Assembly (NCBI GenBank): GCA_022606425.2
Contig: JAHDVF020000415.1
Location: forward strand, 186,001 to 250,000
Length of the DNA: 64,000 bases
DNA from: Lepidostoma basale
Lineage: Eukaryota > Arthropoda > Insecta > Trichoptera > Lepidostomatidae
Direction: 5' to 3'
The notes below the pieces were generated by a model. It made no database searches. It saw only the letters and a program-made list of their open reading frames with translations, and was not told where the DNA came from. Shown here piece by piece: positions 26,501-64,000 of the stretch. Each line of letters begins with the position of its first letter. Positions within the stretch are counted from its first letter, which is position 1. A program made the position numbers and the translations under genes.

Positions 26501-29500
26501 GGAGGAAGGCATCAAAAGTTGATACTGCGCTTCACCCCCTGCATTGAGAGGAATGGCGACTATGTCAAAAAATAGCTTACATATGTACTACGGTAACCAC
26601 GTAATTTTTTGTTTAAATAAAAAAAAATTGTAACCTACAAAAATTCAGTACACTTACTTTCTGGATATGCCTCGTAGAATTATTTAATATGGAGTTTTGA
26701 ATCATTGCTCAAGAGACAATCAATGAATAATTCTTATTTTAAATTGAATTATTGATTACCAGTTGAATTTTGACTTGCTGCTTCCGACAGGCCCCCGCGT
26801 CCTTGTTCTGCTGGATGGCTTCCAGCTGCTCCTCCAGTTTGGTCTTGATGGAGGCGAGGGTCTCGTCCATCCTCTCCTTGTTGGCTTCCAGGGCGTTACC
26901 AGCAAGTAGATCCCTGCAAAAATAATTCATATTAAATATCCATGAAACGGATCGTTTTCTAATAAAGGAATAAAGGGTCTATAAGACAGTTTGATTTTGA
27001 TTTGAGATTCTGTAATATATCGTTCTACCACACATACATCTTAGGGACCTCATCTCTACCGCATTTATTCTGCTCTCATCCTTCCATGCTTCGCTTCCAT
27101 ACATTAGGGTTGGGACCAGAACTCCATTGTTAACGGCCGTTTTCGCTTTCATTGATAAATTCTTGTTTCCAATAACTATTTTTAAAGCTGCATTCATTTT
27201 GTTACCCGCACCAACTCTTCTTTCAACGTCACTATCCGTTCGGCCATCCGCTGTGAACATGCTACCTAAATACACAAATTCACTCACCTGCTCCAAGTTC
27301 TCTTCGTTCACACTTATGTTACAATCTGTCATTTGCTCTTCCCTTTCAAAAACTTTGACTTTCCGACATTCATCATTAAATCATTTGACTTGCGTACCTC
27401 ATACATTCTCTACACCAAGACTTGTAATTCGTCCGCACTATCCGCAACGAGAACGGCATCGTCCGCATAAAGCAGACAGTTTACAGACAGATCACTCATC
27501 TTAGCACCAGCATTTATACCTTTAAGTTCTTTCATACACTTGTCCATATACAGATTGAACAACCATGGAGACATCACGCAGCCCTGCTTAACACCCTCCG
27601 TGATATAAAACCAAGGCGTGATGTCTCAATTTACCCTAACACTGGCAGTGCTCCCTTCGTAGAGGGAAGCAACCGCCCGTATCAGTTTTGTGCTCACTCC
27701 GTATTCGGACAAGATTGACCACAGTTTATCTCTGTTCACTCGATTATAGGCTTTTTGCAAATCGACAAATGCACAGAAAAGCTTCAGTCATACACTTGTC
27801 CATATACAGATTGAACAACCACGGAGACATACCCTAATCAAGAAGTATAATTACCTCTCGTCTATGGTGAACTCGTTGAGATTGAATCCAACGGAGAGTC
27901 CGACTGCAACGAGGGATCTGTTCATCGCTATACTGGCAACGAGGGCTTGCTTCTGCAGATGTCCGAGTTCTAGATCTTTCTTATAACTCATCTGAAATAA
28001 AAATTACTCGGTTAGCCCCAGTGGAATAAGTTTGTCATTTACATTAGATTTTTTGTTAATACGGATAATTAATCTAAATCTGAGAACATTTTAATACAGG
28101 AACAGTAATTAAGCCTAAGACAAGTTAAGGAGAGTTTATTTTTATATTTTTAAAATTTATTTAGACATAACTAACTAACTAACTAACCATCACGCCGTCT
28201 CCCCGAAGGGGTAGGCAGAATTAATGGACTGCCACAATTTTCTTCCCTGACATATTTCTCTCGCTTCCTCAACATTCATACATCGTGTCATGCACGCGCG
28301 TCGATTTCTCTGACTCCTCACATGGCCGACATTCAATTTTTGATTTATTTGATTGTGTCACGTTTTCCTCGGTCCTCCGATTCTATTTCTGGTTCCATTT
28401 ACATCGTCAACATATAATTTTTTTTATCATTATTTCTTCATTCATTCTTTCCATATGTCCAAACCATCTTAATGATGCTTTCATTATTTTGTTCATGACA
28501 CCATCATTCGCGCCGCATTCACTTCTTATATTTTCATTCGACACTCTATCATACACAGAGTATCCACACATTTTTCTAAGAGATCTCATTTCTACTGCAT
28601 TTATTCTAAGTTCATCCTTCTTTTGCCAGTTCCATGCTTCGCTTCCATACATAAGGGTCGGTAGAAGAACACCATACAATTAACATCTTTTTTATTATTT
28701 AGACATACAATAGTAAAACTGTATTCCTATGAGTATAATACTCTTTATGGGACAAAATGACAAATAACATATTTAATAATTACACACAGATACACAACAA
28801 TTGTAATACTTTCAGGAAATATCAAAATACAGACTATTAATTAACACATCTTACAAAATTTACAGAAATACAGAAACATTTAGGAAATATCAGACACATA
28901 CTTATAAACCAACATAATACTAACTAACTAACTAACCATCACGCCATTTCCCCGGAGGGGTAGGCAGAGAGGATGGATCGCCACAATGGCCTGTCCTGGC
29001 ATACCTCTCGGGCTTCCTCTACATCCATACATCGTACCACGCACGCACGTCAATTATTCCGACTTCGAATGTGGACGCCTTTTAGTAATTGATTAATTTG
29101 GTCATGCCATGTTTTCCTCGGTCGTCCTCGGCTTCTTTTCCCACTCACGCTGCTTGTGTACAACTTTTTAACCATTCTACTCTCATCCATTCGTTCCATA
29201 TGTCCGAACCATCTCAGGGATCCTTTTTTAATTTTATCCATGATTCAGTCATCTGCCTTACATTTCTTTCTTATTTCATCGTTGGGTATTCTATCATACA
29301 ACATTTTCCCGCACATTCTTCTTAGTGATCTCATTTCTACGGCGTTTATCCTGCTTTCATCCTTCTTTTGCCAGCTCCAAGCTTCACTTCCATATATGAG
29401 GGTTGGCACTAGAACTCCATTGTGTAAACCAACATAATACAAAACTCAGACTTAGAAACTGAAACAGCACGTAATCCCAAGCGATCAGTACATCACATTG

Positions 29501-32500
29501 TCCCATCCGTTTCCTCTAATACATAAAGACCCGTATCAGAAAAGATACTATTTACTGAAAATACATACTGAATGTTATTATAAAATTCTATGTTTTTAAT
29601 AAAATACTGTGGAAATAAATGTATTTGTTCATGATATTAAATGTGTTTTACCATTTGTATTTCGTTGACCAGCTCCCGTTTTGATTCCACAGCCTTGAGG
29701 ATGGTATCCACTTCTGCGAGGACATCCTTCTTCTGCTTGGTCGTCATCTGCTGCTCCGATAGATTCCTCTGAAGCTCCCTGATCTCCGATCTGCGCAAGA
29801 ACCGACATAATAATTAATATAAATAAAAAATGTCCGGCTTCTAGGAGTTTTATTAAGTTTTTTATGGAATGACATATTTCATTATTGTTTATTGAGTCGG
29901 TTGTTGAGTCTTAACGAACAAATTCATTTCCTCCTTGGTTCACTCTATTTCGATTTCTGTTTTGAAAAAAAAAACTAACTAACCATCACATCGTCTCTCC
30001 GAAGGGGTAGGCAGAAAGAATAGACTGCCACACTTTTCTTTCCTGACATATTTCTCTAGCTTCCTCAACATTCATACACCGTGTCATGCACGCGCGTCGA
30101 TTTCTCTGACTCCTCACGTGGCCGACATTCAATATTTGAATTATTTGATCGTGCCACGTTTACCTCGGTCTTCCGATTCTATTTCTAGTTCCATTTACAT
30201 CGTTAACATATAATTTTTAAACCATTCTTTCCTTGTGTCTAAACCATCTTAATGATCCTTTCATTATTTTGTTCATAACACTGTCATGCACGCCGCATTC
30301 TTTTTTATTTATTTATTTATTTTTAAAAATACTAATACCAAGGATTTAAATCAATGATATTAGAATTTATTATTACAATCTTCAATGTGAGCAGAAAATA
30401 GTTCATTATTATGAAGAAGGAATCTGGTCGTGTCCAGGCTTGAACCCAAGTCCCCTGGATCAGGAGCCAAGCGTTCTATCCCCTAGACCACCACCCGATT
30501 CACTTCTTATATTTTCATTCGACACTCTATCATACACAGAGTATCTACACATTCGTTTAAGAGATCTCATTTCTACTGCATTTATTCTACTTTCATCCTT
30601 CTTTTGCCAGTTCCATGCTTCGCTTCCACTCGGTCACGAAGATCGTTTTATTTGCATTGCACTCACTTCTTATATTTGGATTTGATGCACAAAAAAGTAT
30701 TGAATGAGGCTCACTCGAGGCGTTTGGTCTCGTGGGCCCCCGCTTCCAATGTGGCCCTGGCGTTGGACCTCTGAGATTGCTCGGCCCTGAGTGCCCTCTC
30801 CAGCTCGGAGCGGCCCTGCCGCAGCCGCTGAGCCTGCTCTTCAAGGGCCCCCGGACGCGCCCGAAGAGCCGCCTCCAGGTTGCGGGCCTCCATGATCGCG
30901 GGGCTGCTCGTAAGCAGCGTCAGCTCTGAGGGTGGTAACAATATCAGTTTATCATTTACTCAAAAGATATTATAAACATAATTATAGTTTAAGGCATCTA
31001 TTTGAGAGAGGGTATTGCAAAGGATTCTTCATTAACCTTTCCCTTACGGTGTTAAAATAAAAACGCGCGTTCCTGTGTTGGGTAGTCAGTACCCAATCAA
31101 AATTTAGCAATTTTAAATCAGAAAAATAAAAACATTCATAGCTAATCCCCTTGATTAATTATAATTGAAGTAAAAAATTATTATAATTGAGATTTATTTG
31201 CTGAAAACATTAAAAAACCATCTGGCAACGCTCACGGAACGGGCATAGGCCCACTCTGGTTGCAAGCCCGAGAGCTACTGCCGGCGGCAGTGAGAACATT
31301 GAGCTCCTCGCGCTTCCACAGTGAAGTATGCAAGAGTGAGATGCCAATATAGTATCGCGCACTCACAATGCTGTTTATACGCCAATTTGTTTCCGATGTT
31401 CACAAAATACCTCCGATGTACCCGATAAATTCCGATTATTATTAATATTATTTTTTAAATCAATGCGTAAATATATTATGGAGAAATATCTAAAATCTTA
31501 ACCTTGTATTTATTATATTTATAGAGATATTGATGGTTATTAGAAGCAACGTGTAGAAGTTACCCATCATAGGGAAGGGAGGGTTAAAAGCGCTCAAAAT
31601 TTGAAATGGGCTCCGGGCTTTATCTCCCGTAGATGCCATATCATACGTCAATACGCACGCAGTCTAAGGGTCAAAAGAAGAAGAAGGATTTTGCATATAA
31701 ATACAGCAATATTTAAATTCAGTAAATTTTACATTATTATTTTTGTATAGAATCATGTTTACCACCCCTAATCTGTATGTATATAAAGGAGTCAGTTTAT
31801 AATAGTGTCACCAGTCTGTCGATGCCAGTGAGCCTGGCGAAACCATTCGCTGTGGAAATAATGACAAAAATGGAAGTAATAAACATAATTTTAACTAGCA
31901 GAAGAAAGATGAGAGCAGAATAAATGTGGTAGAGATGAGGTCCCTAAGACGTGTGTGTGGTAGAACGATGTAGGACAGAATCTCAAATGCTGATATTAGA
32001 AAGGAATGTAGAGCGAAAGAAGGTATTATGAAAGGATCCCTGCGTTGGTTCGGACATATGGAGCACATGGGTGAAGAAAGAATGGCTAAAAAAGTATACG
32101 TTAACTATGTAAATGGAGTACGGAGTCGAGGCAGACCGAGGAAAACATGGCACGACCAAATTAATCAAATTTTAAAGGTTGGTCATGTTAGAAGCCGGAG
32201 GAATCGACATGCTTGTATGACTCGCTGTATGAATGTAGAGGAATCTTTCGAATGTGGTCGCCTTTTAATAATTGATTAATTTGGTCATGCCATGTTCTCC
32301 TTGGTCATCAACGGCTTCTTGTTCCACTCACGCTGCTTGTGTACAACTTTTTAACCATTCTACTCTCATCCATTCGTTTCATATGTCCAAACCATCTCAG
32401 AGATCCTTTTTTAATTTTATCCATGATGCAAATATTAAAGGTTGGTCATGTCAGAAGTCGGAAGAATCGACGTGTGTGTATGACTCGCTGTATGAATGTA

Positions 32501-35500
32501 GAGGAAGCTAGAGAGGTGTGCCAGGATAGAGTAGTGTGGCAGTCCATTCTCTCTGCCTACCCCTGCGGAGAAACGGCCCGATTGTTGTTGTTGTTATTTA
32601 ATTATAATTTAAAATGAACTTCCACAAAGAGATTAGAGAAAAAGTTTGCTTGGGAACTCCTTACCTGTGATTTTTTCTCTCAGCTTCATGATCTCATTAT
32701 CGGAGATCCCGTGAAGGTCCTTCAGGGCAGCTACGTACGCCTCCAGGTTGGGCCGATAGTCCGGCTCCGCTGGATTCTGGAAACTGAATAACGAGACATT
32801 TTACCTCAGCCACGGGGCTTAAATCACTTCTCCTCAGGTTATGCAATAGAATGCTAAAGTTAACTCAAGTGAATGGTGCACTTAAAGTTATCATCAGAAA
32901 ACAATGGTGTTCTTGTATCGAACCTTACGTTTGGAAGCCAAGTATGGAACTGGCCAAAGAAGGATGAAAGCAGAATAAATGCAGTAGAAATGAGATCTCT
33001 TAGACGGATGTGTGGGAAAATCTGTGTATGATAGAGTATCGAATGAAAGTGTTATGAACAAAATAATGAAAGGATCATTAAGATGGTTTAGACACATGGA
33101 AAAAAGGAATGAAGAAAGAATGGTAAAAAAAGTATATGTTAAATATGTAAATGGAACTAGAAATAGAAGGAAGACCAGAGAAAACGTGGCACGGTCAAAT
33201 AAATCAAAATATTGAATGTCGGCCACGTGAGGAAAATCAACATGCGTGCATGTCACGATGTATGAATGCTAAGAAAGTGAGAGAAATATGTCAGGAAAGA
33301 AAAGTGTGGCAGTCCATTCTTTCTGCCTACCCCTTCAGAGGGACGGCGTGGCGGTTAGTTAGTCAGTTAAGATTGTAGTATAAGATATCTATTGAGAACA
33401 GGTAAAATATAAAAAATATATAATACCAGGAACGCATGAGAGGGTTCGACATTCGGAATACAAGATACTCTCCAAAGTCAAGAGTATTTGTCTTCTGAAC
33501 GTACTTTCACGAATATGAAAGACGTCGATCTCCGAAGCGATAATGTTCAGCAGTTTGATTGCTCTCCCCACCGGCATCACCAGAAACATGTTGGTTCTGC
33601 GTGTTAAGAGATTAAACTGTGCTGACGCTGTCGAAGATAACCTTCCGGAACATAAAGATGGATAGCCTCCAAGATGACGGAATTCTTAAAGAGTCCCCTG
33701 ACAAGTCTGAAGAAATGGGTAAGTCTGCACCCATCCCTTCTTATCTGTAAACTGTTGGTCCCCAGCATGCCCAAGAGGAATGCAGTGGGATAAAGCCACG
33801 GATAGCTACCAAACTCCCTCATGTAGAGATATCTCAGAAATCTTTTCTGAACCCTCTCTAACATGAGCGAGTATCTCGCCTCGTGGGGACTCCATATCAT
33901 CGAGCCACACTCGAGCCGGCTCCAAACCAATGAGTTATAAAGTATTCACATAACATAGGGATTCTTTATAACTCTACCAGTTGGGAGAACAAATCCTAAC
34001 ATTTTCAGTGCAACTCCACATATTCCTTCGATGTGAGTGTGGAAAGTCAGCCTACTTTCATAAACGATACCAAGATCATTTATCGTTGAAACACTCTTAA
34101 CTTGCTGGTTATCCACTGTGTATCTGAAGATAAAATCACTGAGACATTGAAATCAATTTGATTGGTTTTACTCCAGCAGAAGTCTGACTGACAAAATAAA
34201 GACTGTACTTACACCTCCCAGCAGTCTAGATAGTACTGCTGCTTCATGGTGGCTTCCTCGCCCAGCTTCTCCTCTCCGCTGAGCACGCTGAGAGTCATCC
34301 CTTCCGCGATTATGTCCTGCAAACATCCGCAGATTAAAAACGAACGTACAACGGTTTCGTTCTTCCAACTGTCAGGGTTCTCAGAGACACCCGGGTCCTA
34401 TATATGTCGAAATTAGGAAAAGAAAAGCCACTTTCGGGTCAGATTAAATACATAATATAGTATGAAATTTTATAATAACTAGTAATAATATCCTAGATAT
34501 AAACACCTGCAAGTTTAAATGTCGTAATTGAAGCCAATAAAGGAGAAAAAAAAGTATCATTACTAATATTAGTCTCACGCTTAGTCGCTTCCAAGGAAAA
34601 ATCAATAAACAAATTATAATTTTAATGAACTCATTTTTTTATCTTCTTCTTCTTCTTCAAGTGCCCTGTCGGGTCCCCCCAACGTTGGCGATCACCTCGG
34701 CGAACCTGTCCCTGTCCTGCGCCGCTTGGAACAGCTCCTCAACACTTCGGATGCTGGTCCACTCCCTCACGTTTCGCAGCCAGGACATTTGTCTCCTTCC
34801 GGGCCCTCGACGTCCCTCAATTTTTCCCTCCAATATCAGTTGGAGAAGGTGGTACTTTTCCCCACGCAGTATATGACCCAGATGTGAGATCTTTCGAACC
34901 TTGATAGTTGATAACAGTACCCTGTCAACTCTAGCTCGCCTCAGGACTTCGGTATTGGTAACCATGTCTGTCCAGGGAACTCTGAGCATTCGGCGATGGA
35001 GCCACATTTCAAATGCTTCCAGTCTGTTCATTGAGTTAACTTTCAGGGTCCAAGTTTTATTTTTTTATAATCATTACAATTAAGCCGATAGCATTTTTTA
35101 AATAAAAAAAATAATAAAAATAACATGTTCATTTTTGGTTTCCAATCATGAAAAAAAAAATGAAAATACCGTTGAGATTTTTTGTATACGCACTGTCACT
35201 CATAGTATTGCAAACGATCTCCCTGTAGTGAACGGACTATGACCACCAGGAACAAAAATACCAATTTGTTCCAGAACATAGGGCTTCTCAATAGAGCCCC
35301 GAATCAGCTAAATATTCCAAGCATGGCTCCTTCCAAGGCGCGCTGGAAGACCTGGAACTTGTACACTAGACCCTCTGTAAGCGTCCATGCTTTGACTCCA
35401 CGTGTCATGAATGGCAAGACGCAGTGGTTGAAAAATTTGATCTTGTGAAAAAAATAATTATCCCTCCCTTCCCTGTGATGGGTATCTTCTACACGTTGCT

Positions 35501-38500
35501 TCTAATAACCATCAATATCTCTATACATTTAATAAATACAAGGTTAAGATTTCAGGTATACCTCCATAATATATTTACGCATTGATTAAAAAAATAATAT
35601 TAATAATAATCAAAATTTATCGGGTACATACGAGATATTTTGTGAAATCGGAAACGAAATTCGTAGCGCCGAGTGCGCGACACTATATTCGCATCTCACT
35701 CTTGCATACTTCATTGTGGAAGCGCGAGGAGCTCAATGTTCTCACTGCCCGGCAGTAGCTCTCGGGCTTGCAACCAGAGTGGACCAATGCCCGTCCCGTG
35801 AGCGTTTCCAGATGTTTTTAGCAAATAAATCTCAATTATTATAATTTTTTACTTAAATTATAATTAAATAAGGGAATTGGCTATGAATGTTCTTATTTTT
35901 CCGATTTAATATCGCTAATTTTTAATTGGGTACCGACTACCCAACACAGGAACGCGCGTTCTTATTTTAGCACCGTAAGGGAAAGGTTAATAAAAAAAAC
36001 TATGGCATTGAATAACCTCACCTTGGCTCTGGAGTAGTCGACCAGATAAGCTAGGAAGGCGAGCATATTGGGGTACGTGTGCATGGCGTTCACTGACTTC
36101 AGCCAGGACTTGGTCATCACTCCAGGGTACAGGATCTTCCTTGCAGTCGCCGGAAGCTAAAACACATTAATATCCGGTTAGAATCAACTCAGAAGTTAGA
36201 ATCAAAAGCTAGAATGGCAGTGCACAGTGGTGTTCTTCTACCGACCCTTATGTATGGAAGCGAAGCATGGAACTGGCAAAAGAAGGATGAAAGTAGAATA
36301 AATGCAGTAGAAATGAGATCTCTTAGACGAATGTCGAATGAAAATATAAGAAGTGAATGCGGTGGGAATGATGGTGTCATGAACAAAATAATGAAAGGAT
36401 CATTAAGATGGTTTGGACATATGGAAAGAATGAATTAAGAAAGAATGGTAAAAAAATTATATGTTAATGATGTAAATGGAACTAGAAATAGAATCAGAAG
36501 ACCGAGGAAAACGTGGCACGATAAAATAAATCAAATATTGAATGTCGGCCATGTGAGGAGTCAGAGAAATCGACGCGCGTGCATGACACGATGTATGAAT
36601 GTTGAGGAAGCGAGAGAAATATCTCAGGAAAGAAAAGTGTGGCAGTCCATTCTTTCTGCCTACCCCTTCGGCGAGACGGCGTGATGGTTAGTTAGTTAGT
36701 TGTATATATGCTGTTTGTAATATCTTTTGAGTAAATAAACTGATATGATTTGATCAATATATGGCCTTTTGTTGGCACCTTGAGGACGTAGTTGGTGTTG
36801 TTGATGTGGTTGGGCAGGCCGAGGAGGCAGTTGACGAGGTCCACAAACAGCTTGATGGTGACGGGGCGCAGAGGGGCCCCCGAGGCGGGCAGCAGCGAGC
36901 AAGCCGTGGGGTGCTGCCTAAGGTACTCCACCACCCTTTCCGAAGTCCTGCGCTGCCACGCTTGCTCCGAGATCTTCCTGAAATATACAATTAAATTTAT
37001 TTAATTGTATCTCAATAGAGACGAAGAAGCAAACTGGAAACTGAATATGGATGATCAAGGTGCTTACAGGACTTATGACCTGTCATTGGTTGGGTTAAGC
37101 GCACGCTTTATGTAATTACAACATTCCCCATTCCACCTTTGTTATTATGATCATGCATGACAAATTTTTGGAAGATGTATATATACTTCAAATCCATATC
37201 TATCTTCACGTGTCAGTTTTAATTGTCCATCTATGTAGATTTGGTTGCACTTGTGAATCTTTTCAAGATTAACTTATACAACCGACCCACTAACGCCATC
37301 TATGGAGAATGATTTTCAGCATTTAGCAAACTACCTTATTAACACAATGCGAAGGCTGTAGCCTATAAACGTATTGTTAGAAGCCGCCAGGAGTATTATT
37401 CCATTCTATATGCCAAAGACTTGACCAGAATAATTACAAATATTTTGTGAATGTATACTTATACTTGTATACGAAATCCTGGATTTTCACCAAAGGGTGG
37501 TTAATTCAAATTTAATTGTATCTCAATAGAGACGAAGACGCAAACTGGAAACTGAATATGGATGATCAAGGTGTTTACAGGACTTATGACCTGTCATTGG
37601 TTGGGTTAAGCGCACGCTTTATGTAATTACAACATTCCCCTTTCCACCTTTGTTATTATGATCATGCATGACAAATTTTTGGAAGATGTATATATACTTC
37701 GTTTATATTCGCTTTCACTGTGTGCTGTGGATTCCTATTTTAATAAATAGAAACATATGGAGAAAAAAATAACTTACCTCGCATCCTTCGTTGGCATGGC
37801 GAGAAGAGCTCTCTCGAAATGAGCGAGACGATTGCGGTTCCCTTCGTTGGATGGTGTCCTTGGGCGGCTCTAAATGTAAAGGAAATTTTTAATGTATACA
37901 AATCTTGACGAAGATGCAAATTGGAAACAGAATATGGTGGTCGAAGCGTTTACAGGACTTATGACCTGTCATTGGTTGGGTTAAGCGCACGCTTTATGTA
38001 ATACAGCATTCCCCATTCTGCCCTTCCTACGACCACCACGTCTGACAAATTTTTGGAATGATGGTGTTATGAACAAAATAATGAAAGGATCATTAAGATG
38101 GTTTGGGCATATGGAAAGAAAGAATGGTAAAAAAATTATATGTGAACGATGTATTTGGAACCAGAAATAGAGGAAGACCGAGGAAAATGTGGCACGATCA
38201 ATTAAATCAAAAATTTAATGTCGGCCATGTGAGTCAGAGAAATCGACGCGCTTGCATGACACGATGTATGAATTTTGAGGAAGCGAGAGAAATATGCCAG
38301 GAAAGAAAAGTGTGGCAGTCCATTATTTCTGCCTACCCCTTCGGAGAGACGGCGTGATGGTTAGTTAGTTAGTTAGTTGTATATATGCTACAATGTAGGG
38401 ATACACTCCACATTTTATTTTTTTAATTCAATCTACACTAGCGCCATCTACTAAGATTGGTTGTAAGCATTAAGCAGAAGATCTTTATTAAGGCAATGTG

Positions 38501-44514: not shown

Positions 44515-53165
<8,651 letters not shown>

Positions 53166-53167
<2 letters not shown>

Positions 53168-53171
53168 TAAA
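53166..53171 (+). terminator. Polyadenylation signal of RpS3A
   Basis: AATAAA overlaps the last two bases of the TAA stop codon, leaving a very short 3' UTR, as is common for ribosomal protein genes. Confidence 0.7.
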
Positions 53172-53254
53172 TACTATTTTTAACTACTGAATACCTCTTT
53201 TATTACCTCACACCACTCCCGTTGGATAAAACAATATTCCTCCTACATTACATT

Positions 53255-54450
53255 TGAAGAGAAGAATGTGCGGGAAAACGTTGTATGATAGAATACCGAA
53301 CGATGAAATAAGAAAGAAATGTAAGGCAGATGACTGCATCATTAATAAAATTAAAAAAGGATCCCTGAGATGGTTTGGACATATGGAAAGAATGGATGAG
53401 AGTAGAATGGTTAAAAAGTTGTACACAAACAGCGTGAGTGGAAAAAGAAGACGATGACGACCGAGGAAAACATGGCATGACCAAATTAATCAATTACTAA
53501 AAGGCGGCCACATTCGAAGTCGGAATAATCGACGTGCGTGCATGGTACGATGAGGAATCCCGAGGGGTATGTCAGGACGGGCCATTGTGACGATCCATCC
53601 TCTGCCTACCCCTTCGGAGAAATGATGTAATGGTCAGTTAGTTAGTTTGTGGTAGTTACATTTGAGTTTATTGATATGTAGACGTTTCTTCTTCTCATAG
53701 CTATTTCCCATTTATTTGGGAAAATGCTTTTCAATGATTAGGCATTATTAACTAACCATCACGCCGTCTCTCAGAGGGGTAGGTGGTTCGAAAAATGGAC
53801 TGCCACACATTTCTTTCATGACACTCTTTTTCGCTTCCTCAATATTCATACATTGTCATGCACGCACATTGATTTCTCCAAATCACGTGGCCGACATTTA
53901 GTATTTGATCGTGCCACGTTTTCCTCGTTCGTTCTCTATTTCTAACATAAGTTAACATAAGCTTTTTTTTTACTATTCTTTCTTCATTCATTCATTCTTT
54001 CCATGTGTCCAAACCATCTTTATGTTCCCCTTTTGTTGTTGTTTTGTTCATAAAACATTTTGCACCGCATTCACTACTTATATTTTTATTCAACACTATT
54101 ATACACAGATTTTCCACACATTGGTCTTAAAGATCTTGTTTCTACTTTTATCCTTATTTTGCCAGTTCTACGCTTCCATTGGCAGACATTCCAAACAATA
54201 ATGAGGTGTTAGGCATCTATTGAGAAAAGGTAATATGTAATTAATCAAATTTTAAAGGTTGGTCATGTTAGAAGTTGGAAGAATCGACATGCCTGTATGA
54301 CTCAAATGAAAAAAGAAGCTAGAGAGGTGTGTCATGTGTAAAAAAAATGTAAGCTTGTTTACAAGAGATGGGAAAATGGAGATATCTAAATAAGGGTTGA
54401 TGTCTGACAAAAAAAAATTGGTGGGCTTGTAATTATCACTGCAAATAGAA
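53255..54450. mobile_element. LINE A mosaic downstream of RpS3A
   Basis: Plus copy 53255-53650 (RRMCGKTLYDRIPNDEIRKKCKADDCIINKIKKGSLRWFGHMERMDESRMVKKLYTNSVSGK, ending GGTCAGTTAGTTAG). Inverted decayed copy 53745-54175. Short plus pieces 54235-54450. No intact frame. Confidence 0.7.
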
Positions 54451-54470
54451 ATATGTATGATACATATATA

Positions 54471-55178
54471 CGAAGCATCTCCAGAAAGTAAGTACTGAAA
54501 GGTTACATTTTTTTTATATTTAAACAAAAATTACGTGGTTACCGTAGTACATATGTAAGCTATTTTTTTACATAGTCGCCATTCCTCTCAATGCAGGTGG
54601 TGAAGCGGGGTATCAACTTTTTGATGCCTTCCTCCAAGTAGTTTCCCGCCAACCCCTTCGTCCACTTCTCCACCTCCTCCTTTACCTCCTCGTCGGTTGA
54701 AAACCTTTTTCCACCTATGTGCGGCTTCAGGGAGGTAAAGAGATAGTAATCTGAAGGTGCTAGGTCAGGGGAATGCGCGGGATGGTTCAGAAAATCCCAT
54801 TTAAACGAGGCGAGCAGTTCCTTCTGGCATTGTCGTGCAGCAGGCAGACTCCCTTTGTCAGCATGCCTCTCCTCTTGTTCTGAATCGCCCTCCGCAATTT
54901 TTTTAGGGTCTCACAGTATCTTGCAGAGTTGATGGTCTCCTCATGAGGCATATATTCAATTAAAATTATGCCTCGACAGTCCCAAAACACGGGTGCCATG
55001 ATTTTGGCTGAAATTGTGGTTTTAAACTTTTTGGCGAAGGGTGAAGAGGTGTGACGCCACTGTTGAGACTGCCTTTTGGTTTCAGGCGTGTAGTGTGCAA
55101 CCCATGTTTCATCTCCAGTAAGGATGGAGCGGAGAAATTCATCTCCATGGAGTTTGCAGGGCCTCAAAAACTCTTGCC
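54471..55178 (-). mobile_element. mariner 3' part, inverted
   Basis: The terminal repeat CGAAGCATCTCCAGAAAGTA follows TA at 54469-54470. The minus-strand frame covers GQEFLRPCKLHGDEFLRSILTGDETWVAHYTPETKRQSQQWRHTSSP to VCLLHDNARRNC without a stop, better preserved than the 25.6-kb copy, and includes the first two catalytic Asp residues. The third (SPDLAPSDYYLF) is in a shifted frame. The 5' half is missing: the sequence ends exactly at the CGGCG flank of transposon T1. Confidence 0.88.
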
Positions 55179-55183
55179 CGGCG

Positions 55184-57390
55184 CACAATGGGGCAGGATT
55201 CAGATTTCTTATACAATAACCCAAAAAATAAAAATTATGATTCATTAAACGCTTTGTTATTATATGATTACTCAGATATATTAAGCATATGATCACGAGC
55301 AAATAGACAAGCTAGACTGTGACACGTTCGCTCTAGCACCCCTCAATCGGAGCCGATTACTCGTAGAGGTTACACGTCCGTTATTTCAAGTCAGCGCAAC
55401 ACCTAGTTTCTAACATTTCTTTCGTTGTATTATTGATAAAAAGTTTAAAGTTTTAATATGGAACCTTACACGTCAGGTATGTATCCTCTTTTTTTAGTTA
55501 AATTAATTGTAATTACGGTTTGTTTTAAATGTAAAAAAAATTAAACCGATTTCGCATTAAAATGATACAGAGGTTTTTGTTATGTTAAAAAAACATTTAG
55601 AGATTTAGTATAGAATCCCGATGAATTCCGGAAGTATTTTAATTGATTTACAATAAGTAATTGTTGTACTTTATTGATATGATGTTATTTTTTGCCACTT
55701 TTTGCACCTTTTTATAATAACAGCACATTTCGAATAACCAAAAATGAAAAAAAAATACACCAATTTTGTATCTTATTCTGTTTTCTTTTTCTCGCATACC
55801 TAGGCACCAGCTCCAGCACTTTGTTCATGACAAAGCATCAATTAATTACGCTTATGAAGAGTTCCGGAAAAGAAAAATTGGAGGATCAGATTGATTTCCT
55901 GCAAAAAGAAATCATAAAACGGACAGGGTGTGTTGATGAGTTAGGAAAAAGTACGAAAAAAATTATTCGGTTTAAATTTGATTATAAATCATGATGGGAA
56001 TTAGCTCACTGGATGAAAGAAAGATTTTTCGATGTTATTAAAACGTGGCTTGATACATCCGTTTCTTTCATTCGCGCTACAAAAACATGTGGCGGTCGCC
56101 CGATGATTCCTTTTGAGGAGAGTACAGAAAGGGTGAAGCGGCAAAAGACGGTTAATCTGAGGAATTCTGCATCTCTGCCAGACTTACTCTACGCAACACA
56201 AATGGAACTTAGAGCTGCATGACAGGCAGATGCCTCAAAGTTGGTTCGAGGTATTTTATCTGTTCCAACAGGTTCAGGTAAATCTCATCAAACTTCCAGG
56301 GAGTCTTTTGGAAACGTTTCCATGTCAACATAAGATGCTTTAGCACTTTTGATAGTCTTCTCCATTTGGCGTACAAACTGCCTATAAAAAAATGGCAGGC
56401 TCCAGGGACAGACAAGGAAATCGTTGAAGAAACTAAGGAAAAAATTCAAGCTCATTTCAAAGAAAAACTAGGTTTGATCGTGGACAAACCAAAACCGGGC
56501 TTTGGTAACACAAACGATGGAAATACCGCCAGGCGTTTTTTTTTTAAATGCAGAGGTGTCTGCAGAAATAATCAATTTAGATATAGAATTAATAAGAAAA
56601 ATGTACACCATTTTAATAGTTATATCATGTGGTCATGAAATTAGTGTGGAAAAATACCGGGAGTATGCGTTACATACAGCCAGATATTTTGAAGAAAAAT
56701 ATCTGTGGTATAATATGCCACCCACACTTCACGAATATTTAATACACGGACCTGAAATAGTAAAAACATCAATATTGCCGATTGGTCAATTAACCGAAGA
56801 AGATTACAAAGAACCGTAACAAAGATTTTAAAAAGTTTAGGGAGCACCACTCGAGGAAATCCAGCAGAACGAATTCAAACACGGATATTTTTAATTTTCT
56901 TTTACTCTCATCAGATCCTTTAATAACTAGTAAGAGGAAATTACCGAAAAAGAAGCTAATTAGACTCCCCAAAGACGTTTTGGATCTGATAATACCTCCA
57001 TCTACAGGGTCCTCCAGCCAAAGCGAAAATGATGAATCCGATGACAATGATGGTGTTTCAGAAATATCTTATAACGAGTAAAAAAAAATATTGGTGTGTA
57101 TTCATGAAGGGTAAAATGGACGTTCTTTCAAGAAACGTATATATTATGTAAAACTAAGCTGCATTTTACGTTATTAAAAATAATAAAAAATGACTTTAAC
57201 GAGCTTATAAAAATAAGTAGACAGTATTTGACACATATTTCATTGTTATTGGAAAAATAAAGTGTTAGTATTCATGACATTGTCTCTTATTTTCATTAAC
57301 CTACCTAATTACATTAAATCCTTTGATTTATAACTATATATATAGCCTCTATGAGTTAATGACACCTTTTCATATTTTGGCCCCACTGTG
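55184..57390 (+). mobile_element. T1: Transib/RAG1-type transposon with both ends and CGGCG duplication
   Basis: The left end CACAATGGGGC and the right end, read inward, CACAGTGGGGC match at 10 of 11 positions. CGGCG stands directly outside each (55179-55183 and 57391-57395). The CACWATG-type terminus and a GC-rich 5-bp target duplication are hallmarks of Transib elements, the family related to RAG1. The interior carries a broken transposase (see 55458-57081). At 2207 bp it is a deletion derivative. Confidence 0.88.
55458..57081 (+). pseudogene. T1 transposase, RAG1-like, core deleted
   Basis: A possible first exon is ATGGAACCTTACACGTCAG|GT (55458-55476) with the acceptor TAG at 55801-55803. 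The frame then runs GTSSSTLFMTKHQL..LEDQIDFLQKEIIKR. TGA at 55992-55994 replaces a codon that is Arg in T2 (KS*W versus KSRW). GGRPMIPFEESTERVKRQK..LLYATQMELRAA ends at a second TGA (56220-56222). After about 56270 the catalytic core is missing. From about 56325 the C-terminal domain resumes: FDSLLHLAYKLPIKKWQ, VDKPKPGFGNTNDGNTARRFF, then after a frameshift in a T10 run MPPTLHEYLIHGPEIV, LPIGQLTEEDYKE and, after another, NKDFKKFREHHSRKSS, ending in an acidic tail at 57079-57081. The GNTARRFF and E..NK.F..FR motifs align with RAG1 around its catalytic Glu. Confidence 0.85.
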
Positions 57391-57443
57391 CGGCGGCTGT
57401 GGGCGGCGTGCGCGCGCAAGCGTGCCGCCGTTCCGCTCCGTCG
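57391..57443. other. 53-bp GC-rich spacer between T1 and T2
   Basis: It begins with the T1 duplication CGGCG and ends with the T2 duplication CGTCG. It is about three quarters G+C with several further CGNCG-type words, in an otherwise AT-rich neighbourhood. Confidence 0.8.
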
Positions 57444-58160
57444 CCACAGTGGTCCGGATTTGGGAAACAGTGGACTTAGGAACAAAAGTCATTATTTCGA
57501 TTTGAAAAAAATTGCTTGCTGTAGAAAATCTAATTTGTAACAATATTTGTCATGTTCAACTTTTCGTTATTTGGAGCTTAACATGGTTTAAAAAAATACA
57601 AACGAAAAAAATGTATGGAGTAAAATTGAATTATATTTTTTTCTCAATATATTTTAAATTGCAAGCAACGAAACTTTTTGTATATTAACGTATGTAATTA
57701 GTACTTTATGTCCATATTTTTTTCTTTCCAATATACTTGCATTCTTGGCGTTAAATTGCAGTTGAACTTTAAAAAAAATATTTTTATTTCACAACACAAC
57801 AAATGTTTCTGCCAGAAGATTTGGTTGGGTGGTTATGATGCACAATTATTTCTTTATTACAAATAAGAAAACCAAAATTGCCTATCACCTCCAGTTTTTT
57901 AAATATTCTCCAAAAACTGCATTTTAAAGTATGAAAACCCATGCTTACAAATATAATGTTATTATAATGGAGTACTACATAATAATTTATTTTATGAATG
58001 AGTCGTTACTGCAGTTTTTAAGAATTATGCGAAACAAATAAATAATTATTAGCACCTTCTTTATGGTAATAATTCACCGTTATGACTTACTTGATGAATC
58101 ATTAAAGGAATTTCCTGCACTTTCTGAGAATTATATGGAACAAATAATATACAAAAATAC
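57444..58160 (+). repeat. T2 left terminal inverted arm
   Basis: It pairs with 59740-60452. Within it and continuing to about 58330 there are degenerate repeats of about 105 bp, recognisable from GATGAATCATTA(T/A)..TTTCCTGCA at about 58095 and 58203 and a related GAATGAGTCGTTACTGCAG near 57997. Confidence 0.9.
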
Positions 58161-58347
58161 TATTTTTACCTGTTTCGTGGTAATGGTAGCGCGGCTTATT
58201 TGATGAATCATTATGGCAATTTCCTGCAGTTGCTAAGGATTATATGCAACAAATATAAAAATAGACTCATGAATACCCGTTTAATTGTAATGGTACCTTA
58301 ATGACTCATTTTATGTATCACCATATCAATTCACCTACTTCTTTTCG

Positions 58348-58356
58348 TATATAAAA
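58348..58356 (+). promoter_or_regulatory. TATA box of the T2 transposase gene
   Basis: TATATAAAA lies 96 bp upstream of the first ATG (58452), at a place where a Pol II start would fall near 58380. It is just inside the subterminal repeats. Function is inferred from position only. Confidence 0.5.
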
Positions 58357-58451
58357 CACGCAGGAGCGCATTTTTGGGTTACTAGCTACTGAAGTTTTGA
58401 AGAAGCAACATACCTTGAACTTGACCGCGACCAGAAAAGGGCCTGAAAATC

Positions 58452-59793
58452 ATGACTCGATTTGGCACTCATATGGACATTTACACATTTCTACGAGAAG
58501 GAGACCTCAAGGACTACAAGCGACTCCACCGAGCAATTTTGAACTCCATTTCGCTTGAAATATCACCAGAAGATTCTGAAGTGATATTGAAATTTGCAAG
58601 ATATCTCACTGTCAACTTGAAGAGCAGATGGACCGCGGCCCACAGAATTCAAAACAAATTTATAAATAAGCATTTGAACTGGTTGAAAGCAAGAATCCAG
58701 TGGCCTTCCTGCAATTCCGTAAATCTCGCCGAGATTTTTAAAGAAACCGAAAATATTGCAGAAACCGAATATTTAGAGCAAGAGGATCAATATTTAGCGG
58801 AATCTAATGAAATCATCATAGCATCTACATCTATGGCCACTAAAGATATGGGCACTTCTACAGAAGTTCAAACGAGAAAACCATTTGCAGACCTGGGGAA
58901 CAAGCAGAAGAAAAGGGCGGTCGGGTACATTGAGTGACTATTCGGAAGAGAAGTTAGCTTTTGCTTTAGTCACTAGGCTAAAATCGAATGGAAAAGAGAT
59001 CCTTGCTCGCATTATTGATCACCTCTTGAAGAATCCTGACAAAGTCCCAGATGTCAAATCGCATTTATTCGATAAGGAAAAGAAGAAAACAAATCAGGAA
59101 AACCAAGCTTTGGCTCTTACTACTTCATTAGATCTGTCAAAGTGGAAATATCTGACGTTAAGGGCTGCAATGTCAGATTGGAAGAATTCTCTGCAGCTTC
59201 CTTCCTACCACAAATTATTAGAAGCTAAGAAGAGGTGCTATCCGGATGCCAAAGACGTTGAAATATCTGAACACGGAGCAAAAGTGAACTTGCAAGCACT
59301 TTTGGATTTGACTATTCAGAAGATCCTGCAAATTGTGGGAGACAAACTAGGTATTTCGAGTGGGAATCTGAAGCTAACAAGCAAATGGGGATTTGACGGA
59401 TCTTCAACACAAAGCAATTATAGGCAGAAGAGTGAACTGACAGAATTTGATGAGTCTTCGGTGTTCATGACGAGCCTTGTTCTTTTGAAGTTGGAGTCGA
59501 ACAATGTGGTCATTTGGGAAAATCCGAAGCCATCTTCGACGTTTTACTGTAGGCCTGTCAAATTCCAGTTCGCAAAAGAAACCATTGACTTTGTCAACCA
59601 AGAAAATGCGGCAATGAAGGAAGAAATACGTAATTTGGTTGCATCAAAATGCGGTAATTACGAAATTACTCATGAGCTGCACATGACAATGATAGATGGC
59701 AAAGTAGCTACTATTATTACAGATACTCCATCCGCAGCAATTTTATATTATTTATTCCATATAATTCTTAGAAAGTGCAGGAAATTCCTTTAA
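58452..59793 (+). pseudogene. T2 transposase, RAG1-like N-terminal half
   Basis: The first frame, 58452-58937, holds MTRFGTHMDIYTFLREGDLKDYKRLH..NLKSRWTAAHRIQ and ends TRKPFADLGNKQKKR. One frameshift near 58912 joins it to RSGTLSDYSEEKLAFALVTRLKSNGKE and so on to 59793. The core SKWGFDGSS (Asp at 59395-59397), SSVFMTSLVLLKLE, VIWENPKPSSTFYCRPVKFQF and MIDGKVATIITDTPSAA matches RAG1 around its first catalytic Asp (D600 in mouse), including the PKP..S..C.P element. Right after DTPSAA, where the family normally has a Cys-x2-Cys zinc motif, the frame runs into the inverted right arm and ends after 18 foreign residues. The second Asp and the Glu are therefore absent. Confidence 0.87.
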
Positions 59794-60452
59794 TGATTCA
59801 TCAAATAAGTCATAACGGTGAATTATTACCATAAAGAAGGTGCTAATAATTATTTATTTGTTTCGCATAATTCTTAAAAACTGCAGTAACGACTCATTCA
59901 TAAAATAAATTATTATGTAGTACTCCATTATAATAACATTATATTTGTAAGCATGGGTTTTCATACTTTAAAATGCAGTTTTTGGAGAATATTTAAAAAA
60001 CTGGAGGTGATAGGCAATTTTGGTTTTCTTATTTGTAATAAAGAAATAATTGTGCATCATAACCACCCAACCAAATCTTCTGGCAGAAACATTTGTTGTG
60101 TTGTGAAATAAAAATATTTTTTTTTAAAGTTCAACTGCAATTTAACGCCAAGAATGCAAGTATATTGGAAAGAAAAAAATATGGACATAAAGTGCTAATT
60201 ACATACGTTAATATACAAAAAGTTTCGTTGCTTGCAATTTAAAATATATTGAGAAAAAAATATAATTCAATTTTACTCCATACATTTTTTTCGTTTGTAT
60301 TTTTTTAAACCATGTTAAGCTCCAAATAACGAAAAGTTGAACATGACAAATATTGTTACAAATTAGATTTTCTACAGCAAGCAATTTTTTTCAAATCGAA
60401 ATAATGACTTTGGTTCCTAAGTCCACTGTTTCCCAAATCCGGACCACTGTGG
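59740..60452 (-). repeat. T2 right terminal inverted arm
   Basis: Inverse of 57444-58160 with only scattered differences (for example GACTTTGGTTCC versus GGAACAAAAGTC). Its inner end lies inside the transposase frame. Confidence 0.9.
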
Positions 60453-60689
60453 CGTCGCGTCGCCGCATTTCCCCGCGTGATCCGTTCTGAGGACACTGCC
60501 AGGCGGGGAGTTTGACTGGGGCGGTACATCTGTCAAAGAATAACGCAGGTGTCCAATTTTCGAGAGTGGCCACACTTGAGAGGGGATCTAACCCTCCGCC
60601 CTGCAGAGTTCCGAGCAGCTCTCGGCCCCAGTCCGCCTCCACCCTCGGTAGGAGAAGTGTCTCCGCCCCGGCCACGCGCCGAGGGGCAA

Positions 60690-61990
60690 TAGTCTCAAAA
60701 GATCGCGAAGTGTTATACCGAACGCCGGGAAGTGAATCCGAAAAAGATCGCGATATCGCCGCATGGCGTCAGCTCATCATCATTGGGACCTGATGCTGAC
60801 CACGGCTGTCTCAGCGATGGAGACCACTCGCTCCTCGCTCTCCTTCGCTCTTCCGCCTCGGACGTCCCTCGTGATGTGGACGCCACGTGTCGGCTGGATC
60901 GTCGACTTCTCAGATCAGATCAAGTAGTGTTAATTCAGTGACGGGGTAGCTTTAAGTCGTTGGCCAACGAATAGAAGTAAGTCATCTTTAGTTTATAAGT
61001 GATCTTGTTTATTTGTTTTTGTATGTTTGTGTTTAAATATAAGTGTAAATAGCAAATATTGGTTTCAATCTCATATCACTATACCTCCCGGAGCATCTTA
61101 GAGATGGAATAAACACTGGGCAATACGTTGTGAGAGAGAGATATGGAGTGAGATACGACTAATCGTCATGTTTCACCCCGTGTCGAGAGCTTCTTACTTA
61201 CAACCAAAACAAAAATTTGCCCCTAGCGACAGTACTGTCATACTTAAATTCCTTTAATTAATATCGATATTATTCACGTAAAAAACCCGCGTAAAATGTA
61301 TTGTTGTTTCGACACGGGGTGAAACATGACGACTAGTCGTGCTCCACTCCGTTTCTCGAACCAATCTTCACAACGTGTTCATGCCCAAATTACTCGCTAA
61401 TGTGATTATTATTCGATCTCTAAGATGCTCCGGGATGTATAGTGATAGGAGATTGAAACCAATATTTACTATTTACAATTATATTTAAACATACAATATA
61501 CAAAAGAAAAAAACAAGATCCCTTATAAACTAAAGATGACTTACTTGCTAATCGTTGGAACGACTTAAAACTAATCCGTAACGTTATCCTCGGGACAGCA
61601 GTGCCGAGTTGGGTCTGCCTTCATCCCGCCGCGGAGCTCGGGCGAGGCAGACGACGATGAAGGGTGACGTGGAGGCTGGCCGGATCTGAGGCAGCCGGCA
61701 CCTGGCGCCTAATGGTGATGATGTGGACGGCGACGGACCGTGTCAGGCGGCTTGGCATCCTCCTCCATCCGCACCACGAGGGATGTGCGAGGCGGGCGCG
61801 AGGACGGGCGAGGAGCGAGAGGCGGCGCCTGGTTTCATTCGCTGAGACAGCCGTGGTCAGCATCAAGTCCCAATGATGATGAGCTGACGCCATGGTTACT
61901 GACGCCATGCGGCGATATCGCGATCTTTTCCAGAATCACTTCCCGGCGTTCGGTATAACACTTCGCGATCTTTTAAGACTATCTCCCCCC
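60690..61990. repeat. Long fold-back repeat, unclassified
   Basis: 60690-61186 is repeated inverted at 61308-61990, with a spacer of about 120 bp. Shared landmarks are AAAGATCGCGAAGTGTTATACC, CATGGCGTCAGCTCATCATC, AAGTAAGTCATCTTTAG, ATTGGTTTCAATCTC and CATGTTTCACCCCGTGTCGA. The right arm is longer by an extra CG-rich segment at about 61650-61830. Outer parts (60554-60690, 61990-62105) are related but diverged. No transposase was recognised. Confidence 0.8.
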
Positions 61991-61999
61991 GGCGCGCGT

Positions 62000-62560
62000 C
62001 CGCCGAGGGAGAGATGTTCCTTTACCCCAGGCCGGTGGTAGACTCCCTACTGGCGACTCGAGCTCCAATCGCAGGGTGAGGGGGTTAGGTCATCCCCTAG
62101 TGGTCTATCTGAAAAATCTAGTGGATTGCGCAATTTCGAAATCTTAATGCAATAAGTTTTCTTTTAAAGCTGTTTTTTCCCAATGTTCTTTTCTTAGTTT
62201 AGTGCAATCTCATTTTGAGTAGTGGGGATTGATATAGCCATGTTTCATGGCATAATAGGTGAGATTGCACTGGACAAATTTTACATGACCGAAAATACGT
62301 TTTCTCTCTGGAGGCTTCTTTGATCTTAGTTAAGTTTAATTTTAATTAGTGATAAGAATATGAAAGACAATTTAAAAACAATAATAGTGCTTAAATAAGT
62401 GAATTGACAATTTTCGTGAGTGGCCACACTTTGGCGGGGGATGACCTAACCCCCTCACCCTGCGATTGGAGCTCGAGTCGCCAGTAGCGAGTCTACCACC
62501 GGCCTGGGGTAAAGGAACGTCTCTCCCTCGGCGGACGCGCGCCACCTTGGTAATGTCCAG
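62000..62560. repeat. Inverted repeat pair related to the fold-back's outer ends
   Basis: 62000-62105 (CTTTACCCCAGGCCGGTGGTAGACTC, CTCGAGCTCCAATCGCAGGGTGAG) is the inverse of 62430-62548. The outward ends differ (CCACTAGGGG versus CCACACTTTGGCGGGG). The 320-bp interior is AT-rich and noncoding. Confidence 0.75.
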
Positions 62561-62956
62561 CCTTCAATTGTTCAATTCACATTAGTATTATTCAAGTTCA
62601 CAGCAAGTTTGCTTGGATTAAAAAAATGTTTTAAAGATATGAACTGAATTAGGATACACACATTCTTGCACCTATACACATGTCATTTTATCCAATAAAA
62701 TGATTGATATTGAACTTGAATTGTATTTCTTTAATATATATTGGGTGTATTTATATACTCCAATATAGCAATAGCGAAGCGTTGCCGGGTCAGCTAGTCG
62801 TAAATAATTCTGGCCATAGTCGATGACACACATGATTTTTGAATATGAAAATTTTACTGTGGATAGATACGTACAAATGCCGCTAGATGGCATTGTTACA
62901 TTTATTTTGATGTTTAACTGACATTCCTTGTTTTTCCCTTGTAGTCTTCATATAAA
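62561..62956. other. Noncoding sequence, nothing recognised
   Basis: AT-rich. GCGAAGCGTTGCCGGGTCAGCTAGT near 62775 resembles a phrase near 9783 (CACCGGGTCAGCTAGT) and may mark the end of a shared repeat. Confidence 0.35.
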
Positions 62957-63180
62957 CTATATAATATCACAAAAGCCTGAATCTCGGAAACCTTCGGAAC
63001 ATTGTCATTTTCAACATTAAAAATTAAAAAAACGATTTTTAAAATTTTATTCCTTATTCTTAAGTTTTCTTAAAAAAATGCTTTCTGTATCATAAAATGC
63101 ATCATTTAAACTATATATGATCACAAAAGCCTGAATCTCGGAAACCTTCGGAACATTGACATTTTCAACTTTAAAAATAA
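62957..63180 (+). repeat. Tandem duplication, about 150-bp unit
   Basis: CACAAAAGCCTGAATCTCGGAAACCTTCGGAACATTG occurs at 62968 and again at about 63121, followed in both by TCATTTTCAAC or ACATTTTCAAC. Noncoding. Confidence 0.8.
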
Positions 63181-63329
63181 AACATATATATTTTATGCAC
63201 GCACGTTATTAAAATACTTCTAACGGCAATTTTATGTCTTTCCCTAACGAGGTGAAGTCCCCAGGAGGCCTAATCCACTTGGAAGATTACAAAAAATATA
63301 GATATTTTATGAAACTAATGAATGTTAAG

Positions 63330-63716
63330 TGTGCCGGTTAGTCAGAGTGACTTTCTGAACCGTGGAATAGATTCATATCTACAAAAGTGAAGTTCTCTTT
63401 CTCGGTATCGGCCTCGTCATCAAAATGATCATAAATTATTAATAACCTTTGCGCTGCCTATAAAGTTTAGGTCTATTTGCCAATTTACGAGGATCAGATG
63501 TTGTATAAGTTGAATAAATTTTTTATCTACACCAGTTATTCTATCTTTTTGTGCAGGATTCGCGAAAAATCGTCTGGCCGTGTTGCCACCATTAGTTGTA
63601 CCTTGTCCCTGTTTCACTATATCAATCAATAGCCCTGTTTTTGTTTTAAAGTCTTTCTGAACCTGCCGTTTTTTAGCTTCTGTTTTATCTTTGTTTTCTT
63701 TCTGTAATTTCCAAGT
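63330..63716 (-). pseudogene. T3a: Transib-type transposase fragment, minus strand
   Basis: Reading leftwards: LQKENKDKTEAKKRQVQKDFKTKTGLLIDIVKQGQGTTNGGNTARRFFANPAQKDRITGVD. This is the same C-terminal domain as in T1 (VDKPKPGFGNTNDGNTARRFF). It diverges after IQHLILV. An acidic DDEADTEKENFTF..SESHSD stop at about 63420-63340 may be the protein's C-terminal tail after a deletion. Confidence 0.75.
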
Positions 63717-63721
63717 TCAGG

Positions 63722-64000
63722 TTTTCAGTCATTTTGGAAACACTTTCCTCAGGGTATGCCATTGATACGCAGAAATTCAAAGAATTCGCAGATCAAACTA
63801 TACATCTGCAGGTACTTGGAGTTATACAGTTGGTATTACATGCCTGCTAGCATCTCAAAATTCTGGTACACGGAAAAGAAACAATTGAAAGTTTCGGTTT
63901 ATTTCCAATTGGAAAGTTGTTAGAGGAAGCCTCTGAATCCAGAAATAAAGATTTTAGGACATACCGACAACATCACGCCCGCAAATTTTGCAAAAAGGCA
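63722..64000 (+). pseudogene. T3b: Transib-type transposase C-terminal part, plus strand
   Basis: FSVILETLSSGYAIDTQKFKEFADQT (from about 63724) then, after frame changes, WYYMPASISK and ILVHGKETIESFGLFPIGKLLEEASESRNKDFRTYRQHHARKF to the window edge. SESRNKDFRTYR aligns with the RAG1 segment around its catalytic Glu; that codon is GAA at 63935-63937. It starts head-to-head with T3a: the two fragments are adjacent parts of one protein in opposite orientation. It continues beyond the window. Confidence 0.82.

Follow-up and report, generated by a model that had tools for sequence, protein, structure and literature searches.

A defective Transib transposon bounded by RAG-type heptamers and 5-bp CGGCG repeats in Lepidostoma basale

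A transposon of 2207 bp, here termed T1, lies at positions 55184 to 57390 on the plus strand of the 64-kb stretch of DNA that was analysed (the window). Its ends, its flanks, a chance test and protein matches very probably mark it as a dead, non-autonomous Transib, the parent of which entered GC-rich DNA, producing a 5-bp CGGCG repeat, before undergoing deletion and decay. Transibs have long been recognised as transposons related to RAG1. The bounds of T1 given by the initial annotation, together with its heptamer-like ends and the CGGCG on both sides, are confirmed to the base. The left terminal repeat, CACAATGGGGC (55184 to 55194, plus strand), begins with the heptamer CACAATG; the right, CACAGTGGGGC (57380 to 57390, minus strand; the plus strand reads GCCCCACTGTG), begins with CACAGTG, the V(D)J consensus heptamer. 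Hence the CAC heptamer of CACWRTG type, a feature of Transibs, is present at both ends. The two 11-bp ends are identical at ten of eleven positions, and no inverted repeat between them extending beyond 11 bp was found. Directly outside lie CGGCG at 55179 to 55183, a putative target-site duplication, and CGGCG at 57391 to 57395, both read directly. A second Transib feature, the 5-bp flank repeat, is thus also present, although the sequences in which its two copies lie are unlike.

The likelihood of such an arrangement arising by chance was assessed against 200 dinucleotide shuffles of the window, counting pairs with CACWRTG at both ends, an end identity of at least 10/11, a separation of 200-6000 bp and a 5/5 flank match. 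No pair with all of these features occurred in the 200 shuffles. When the flank match was dropped, 46 pairs were found in the 200 shuffles and three in the real window; it is this contrast between 46 and none that makes the flank match matter. A relaxed scan of the real window, allowing an identity of at least 9/11 and a flank offset of zero or one, recovered two elements, T1 and a neighbour, T2, the latter passing only with a one-base flank offset. A further pair, CACAGTGAAGT/CACAATGAAGT at 31317-35718, has unmatched flanks and was rejected as chance-like. A search of the window for another copy of T1 yielded none.

The interior of T1 was compared with P0029, a protein of 690 aa from Macrosiphum euphorbiae, which is the best-scoring T1 relative among the matches listed. 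All of the following pieces lie on the plus strand. The N-terminal part of the transposase (55827 to 56354) corresponds to P0029 aa 1-178 with 48% identity, while identity in the C-terminal parts is 64-85%: the middle part (56348 to 56542) matches aa 428-492 at 85%, the C-terminal part (56538 to 56801), in another frame, aa 491-578 at 75%, and the C-terminal end (RNKDFKKFREHHSRK...; 56815 to 57078), in a third frame, is 64% identical over 56815-57063. Residues 428-665 of P0029 are therefore kept at 56348-57063, spread over three frames, and residues 179-427 (approximately 249 residues, about a third of the gene) are missing just before 56348. Stop codons are present at 55992, 56220 and 56331, and there are at least three frame changes. 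The motifs GNTARRFF and E..NK.F..FR, reported initially as belonging to one C-terminal domain, are both present, the second as E..RNKDF..FR, though in different frames (56282-56638, 56478-56819 and 56794-57081).

In an alignment of 22 relatives, using P0029 numbering, D268 and D372 are both invariant, with E581 nearly so; we take these three to be the catalytic residues. In P0029 all three lie in a single reading frame. In T1 both aspartates fall inside the deleted stretch, and a catalytic-type glutamate codon that matches E581 is retained (K-E-P, just before RNKDF; 56811 to 56813). The complete D-D-E triad, expected of autonomous members only, is absent, and T1 is therefore a non-autonomous derivative. 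With three stops, frame changes and the loss of approximately 249 residues, it is a dead element without a working enzyme of its own. Intact ends enclosing an internal deletion are normal for relics of DNA transposons. The suggestion that this copy would allow the consensus of its family to be rebuilt does not hold, as about a third of the gene and two of the three catalytic residues are missing.

The two flanks of T1 are of quite different character. To the left, a mariner copy on the minus strand (copy A, 54469 to 55182; Pfam Transposase_1, E 2e-20) ends at the edge of the element. It is 91% identical to copy B at 25964-26676, with homology extending to 55182, one base short of T1, and a mismatch at 55179; where the left flank of T1 has CGGCG, copy B reads TGGCC, so that the fifth base differs. 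The last ~320 bp of copy A were not found to the right of T1 within the window, and a simple insertion of T1 splitting one mariner is rejected on this basis. Copy B is itself near-complete (25643-26676) with matching terminal repeats, and is adjoined by a predicted tRNA-Gly (tcc) at 25552-25623.

To the right, positions 57391-57443 are 81% GC, compared with 39% in the window. The portion of this spacer beyond the CGGCG (57396 to 57443, plus strand) is probably 28S rDNA, going by its GC content and its likely continuity with a 28S rRNA gene scrap at 60453 to 60554 (plus strand). The scrap is clear from about 60474, its first 20 bases aligning only as an insertion; in a 601-base Rfam scan it matched LSU_rRNA_eukarya at E 5.6e-10, with 46.9 bits against a gathering threshold of 50. 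At gathering level no Rfam match was obtained across the whole window, 28S was missing from the matches of a permissive scan over 50000-64000, and the 54 bp at 57391-57444 alone gave two chance-level matches only (E 1.1 and 5.2). Neither viral nor genome contigs yielded a match to the 28S sequence. The stretch 57391-57443 probably belongs to the same scrap as the sequence from 60453 onward. Six CGNCG sites fall within the joined island of 150 bp, compared with 140 across the 64 kb of the window. T1 thus sits at the junction of a mariner and a GC island. A GC-rich repeat beginning AATTTTCGAGAGTGGCCAC directly follows the 28S scrap, and its start recurs near 62410.

T2 (57444 to 60452, plus strand; ends (C)CACAGTGGTCCGG), separated from T1 by 53 bp (57391-57443), is a second defective Transib belonging to another clade, as indicated by the end scan, homology and a tree of 34 rows in which a 100/100 branch separates the two elements. 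It carries a 712-bp inverted repeat, the left arm of which (57444 to 58155, plus strand) differs at 7 of 713 columns from the right (59741 to 60452, minus strand); self-comparison identifies the latter as an inverted copy of the element's own 5' end. Between them, homology reveals the N-terminal half of a transposase with both catalytic aspartates (WGFDGSS and MIDGKV; 58452 to 59742, plus strand), which matches aa 11-226 of HzTransib, from Helicoverpa zea, at E 1.1e-58 and has one frame change near 58900-58935. After both aspartates the gene runs into the inverted arm, such that the half bearing the glutamate is absent, replaced by the 5'-end copy. T2 is flanked by CGTCG (57439-57443 and 60453-60457) only if an extra C:G pair is counted at each end; if the element is counted from the heptamer itself, the flanks become GTCGC and GCGTC and no longer agree. 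Eight of the 25 T2 relatives among the matches listed have an organism name, these being one firefly and seven species that we assign to the moths.

Several other features were observed in the window. A third Transib piece at 63438-64000 runs off its end; a block matching residues 312-379 of P0006 is found on the minus strand (63713-63510) immediately adjoining residues 380-468 on the plus strand (63719-63988), which amounts to a local inversion. Nested inverted repeats with arms of 82-90% occupy 60675-62000, giving a large fold-back centred near 61250. An 858-aa open frame at 11486-14062 is presumably a host kinase-family exon (SIK-like).

Cleavage by nicking and hairpin formation is carried out by Transib itself. 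The same chemistry is described for RAG in PMC7204232, which also gives 5-bp repeats as usual for both Transib and RAG transposition. By analogy with this chemistry, a full-length parent of T1, encoding approximately 690 aa, would have been excised by such cleavage at its CAC heptamers, and a 5-bp staggered insertion at a GC-rich site would have produced the CGGCG repeats. An internal deletion would then have taken out residues 179-427, and with them both catalytic aspartates, stops and frame changes following; any later movement would have been possible only with transposase from another copy. In the simplest history, the joint between the mariner and the GC island would be older, with T1 landing on a CGGCG located there, and the empty site would read mariner TTGCC, a single CGGCG and GCTGTGGGCGG. 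T2 would have inserted at CGTCG, 53 bp away, probably in the same 28S-derived GC island, rich in CGNCG.

The account most seriously in competition with this accepts T1 as a Transib while denying that insertion made the two CGGCG copies: the site would be one of rearrangement, whether through recombination between two T1 copies, a join in the assembly or an adjacent deletion, with flanks that agree through target preference and chance. Taken together these variants are improbable, though not negligibly so. They draw on the contrast between a mariner on the left and 81% GC DNA on the right, on the missing end of mariner copy A and on the difference from copy B in the fifth base of the repeat; furthermore, the CGTCG of T2 suggests a CGNCG preference, by which two independent sites could easily agree. 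Such a preference, shared by both sites, would make the 5/5 flank match much likelier than the probability of approximately 0.001 expected from local base composition, a value that itself argues against rearrangement. However, the preference is suggested by two elements, T1 and T2, and does not accommodate, as a strict rule, either GCTCG, the 5-bp GC-rich repeat reported for HzTransib in PMC1852546, or CCAGG, the target repeat given for a TransibSU in PMC4411706. Moreover, an older joint between mariner and GC island, followed by one ordinary insertion, explains everything. Hence the duplication called perfect by the initial annotation stands in its 5/5 match, absent from all 200 shuffles, and is qualified by the different origins of its flanks. 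Because its copies adjoin mariner on one side and GC-rich DNA on the other, the duplication is likely yet less clean, and the origin of both CGGCG copies from one target is accordingly put no higher than likely. A bolder proposal, which we consider quite improbable, is that two distant Transib clades chose CGNCG in one 28S island and that the left edge of T1 is a RAG-like translocation joint; if true, this edge would be a joint made by Transib rather than a plain insertion, and GC islands would be landing pads for Transibs here.

Under the preferred reading, of a Transib inserted with a 5-bp repeat, the protein evidence should be considered next. In a search of solved structures, three T1 pieces matched HzTransib (PDB 6pqn), at aa 262-329 (E 3.9e-16), aa 328-417 (E 1.5e-15) and aa 418-469 (E 3.6e-13). 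The pieces at 55683-55991, 55995-56219 and 56161-56340 had no Transib match in PDB. The solved HzTransib chain begins near profile position 168, the full-length relatives of T1 having approximately 165 more N-terminal residues, and most of the N-terminal part of T1 consequently has no counterpart there. The alignment with Transib transposases that had been proposed as a check therefore bears out the assignment, with three pieces matching HzTransib and four matching P0029. The read-through protein of T1 retrieved 620 proteins at E <= 0.001 from 7992 candidates scored, of which the best 120 of 620 were listed. In the tree (34 rows, 32 relatives), T1 is sister to P0029 with a support of 100/98. 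As Macrosiphum euphorbiae is, we assume, an aphid, horizontal transfer of T1 involving aphids was considered; no claim is made, since the comparison covers proteins only, with 13 of the 120 listed relatives carrying an organism name and 32 relatives in the tree. Among viral contigs, two stretches pattern-matched the T1 protein and five the T2 protein, none of which was confirmed, and the end sequences of T1 and T2 had no match.

A profile built from 22 relatives matched HzTransib at E 7.7e-198, the ProtoRAG RAG1L at 1.4e-11 and 15 RAG1 sequences at E 2.3e-9 to 1.5e-5, the distant C-terminal homology covering profile positions of about 554-615 for RAG1 and 443-614 for RAG1L. The six pieces of T1 compared with Pfam gave no RAG1 match, their only matches being two weak and unrelated ones (E 0.08); of six relatives, P0082 lay above the Pfam RAG1 cut-off, four lay below it and one had no match. 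The description of the gene as RAG1-family thus survives as a kinship with RAG1 detected through the profile of relatives, whereas the gene itself is assigned, on this sequence comparison, to the Transib superfamily, with RAG1 a distant relative reached only through those intermediates. RAGL elements are closer to RAG1 than Transibs are. That T1 might itself be such a RAG-like (RAGL/ProtoRAG) transposon is highly improbable: the canonical CACAGTG at one end, the nonamer-like sequence at the other and the RAG1L match of the profile would suit it, but the HzTransib match is far better, no Pfam RAG1 match exists for the six pieces, and the 2.2 kb holds the pieces of one gene. ProtoRAG and RAGL have, in addition, a RAG2-like gene; none was seen in T1, and none of its six pieces gave a RAG2-like Pfam match.

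HzTransib resembles T1 in its homologous transposase over aa 262-469, and its ends are, we presume, of the same heptamer type. Unlike HzTransib, T1 lacks both catalytic aspartates and contains stops. There is also a difference in structure, as PMC1852546 gives HzTransib a length of 3518 bp and long terminal repeats, against 2207 bp and 11-bp ends in T1. The Drosophila transib1-4 elements belong to the same superfamily and a similar size class, 2167-2883 bp in a table of PMC10299278; the column read as TIR length in that table gives them terminal repeats of 40-45 bp, and the far shorter 11 bp of T1 counts against the preferred reading.

The resemblance of T1 to RAG1 and ProtoRAG sites lies in the heptamer, and may extend further at the left end. 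There, a nonamer-like ACAATAACC (55213 to 55221, plus strand) begins 22 bp after the heptamer and agrees at eight of nine positions with ACAAAAACC, which we take to be the V(D)J nonamer consensus. PMC8355894 reports other Transibs with spacers of 20-22 bp. Across both strands, 208 of 127,880 window positions reach 8/9 of the nonamer at one or other of eight spacings, and among the 43 CACWRTG heptamers in the window only the left one of T1 has an 8/9 nonamer at those spacings. With three ends tested, this is suggestive; the feature was sought after the fact. At the right end of T1 no nonamer was found, the best agreement being 4/9 for spacers of 11-13 bp and 5/9 for those of 20-24 bp; nor was one found at the end of T2 at 11-13 or 20-24 bp, its best being 7/9 at 30 bp. 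T1 does not have a 12/23 recombination signal pair, its nonamer occurring at the left end only and with a 22-bp spacer. Finally, although heptamer pairs of at least 10/11 identity do arise in shuffled sequence if flanks are ignored, it is scarcely credible that the ends of T1 are chance heptamers with a pseudogene merely between them, given the lack of flank-matched pairs in shuffles, the halt of mariner homology one base short of the element and the abrupt rise in GC content just outside its right end.

T1 is hence an ordinary relic, an added bounded member of a clade in which a presumed aphid protein is the best listed relative. Transib copies with clear boundaries are useful in establishing target preference and end structure, and to these T1 adds a bounded relic with a V(D)J-consensus heptamer and a left end of heptamer-22-nonamer form. 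T2 illustrates a possible route to Transib derivatives whose inverted arms are very long. Knowledge of the superfamily is unchanged by either; the CGNCG targets and the position adjacent to 28S sequence would matter only if seen genome-wide.
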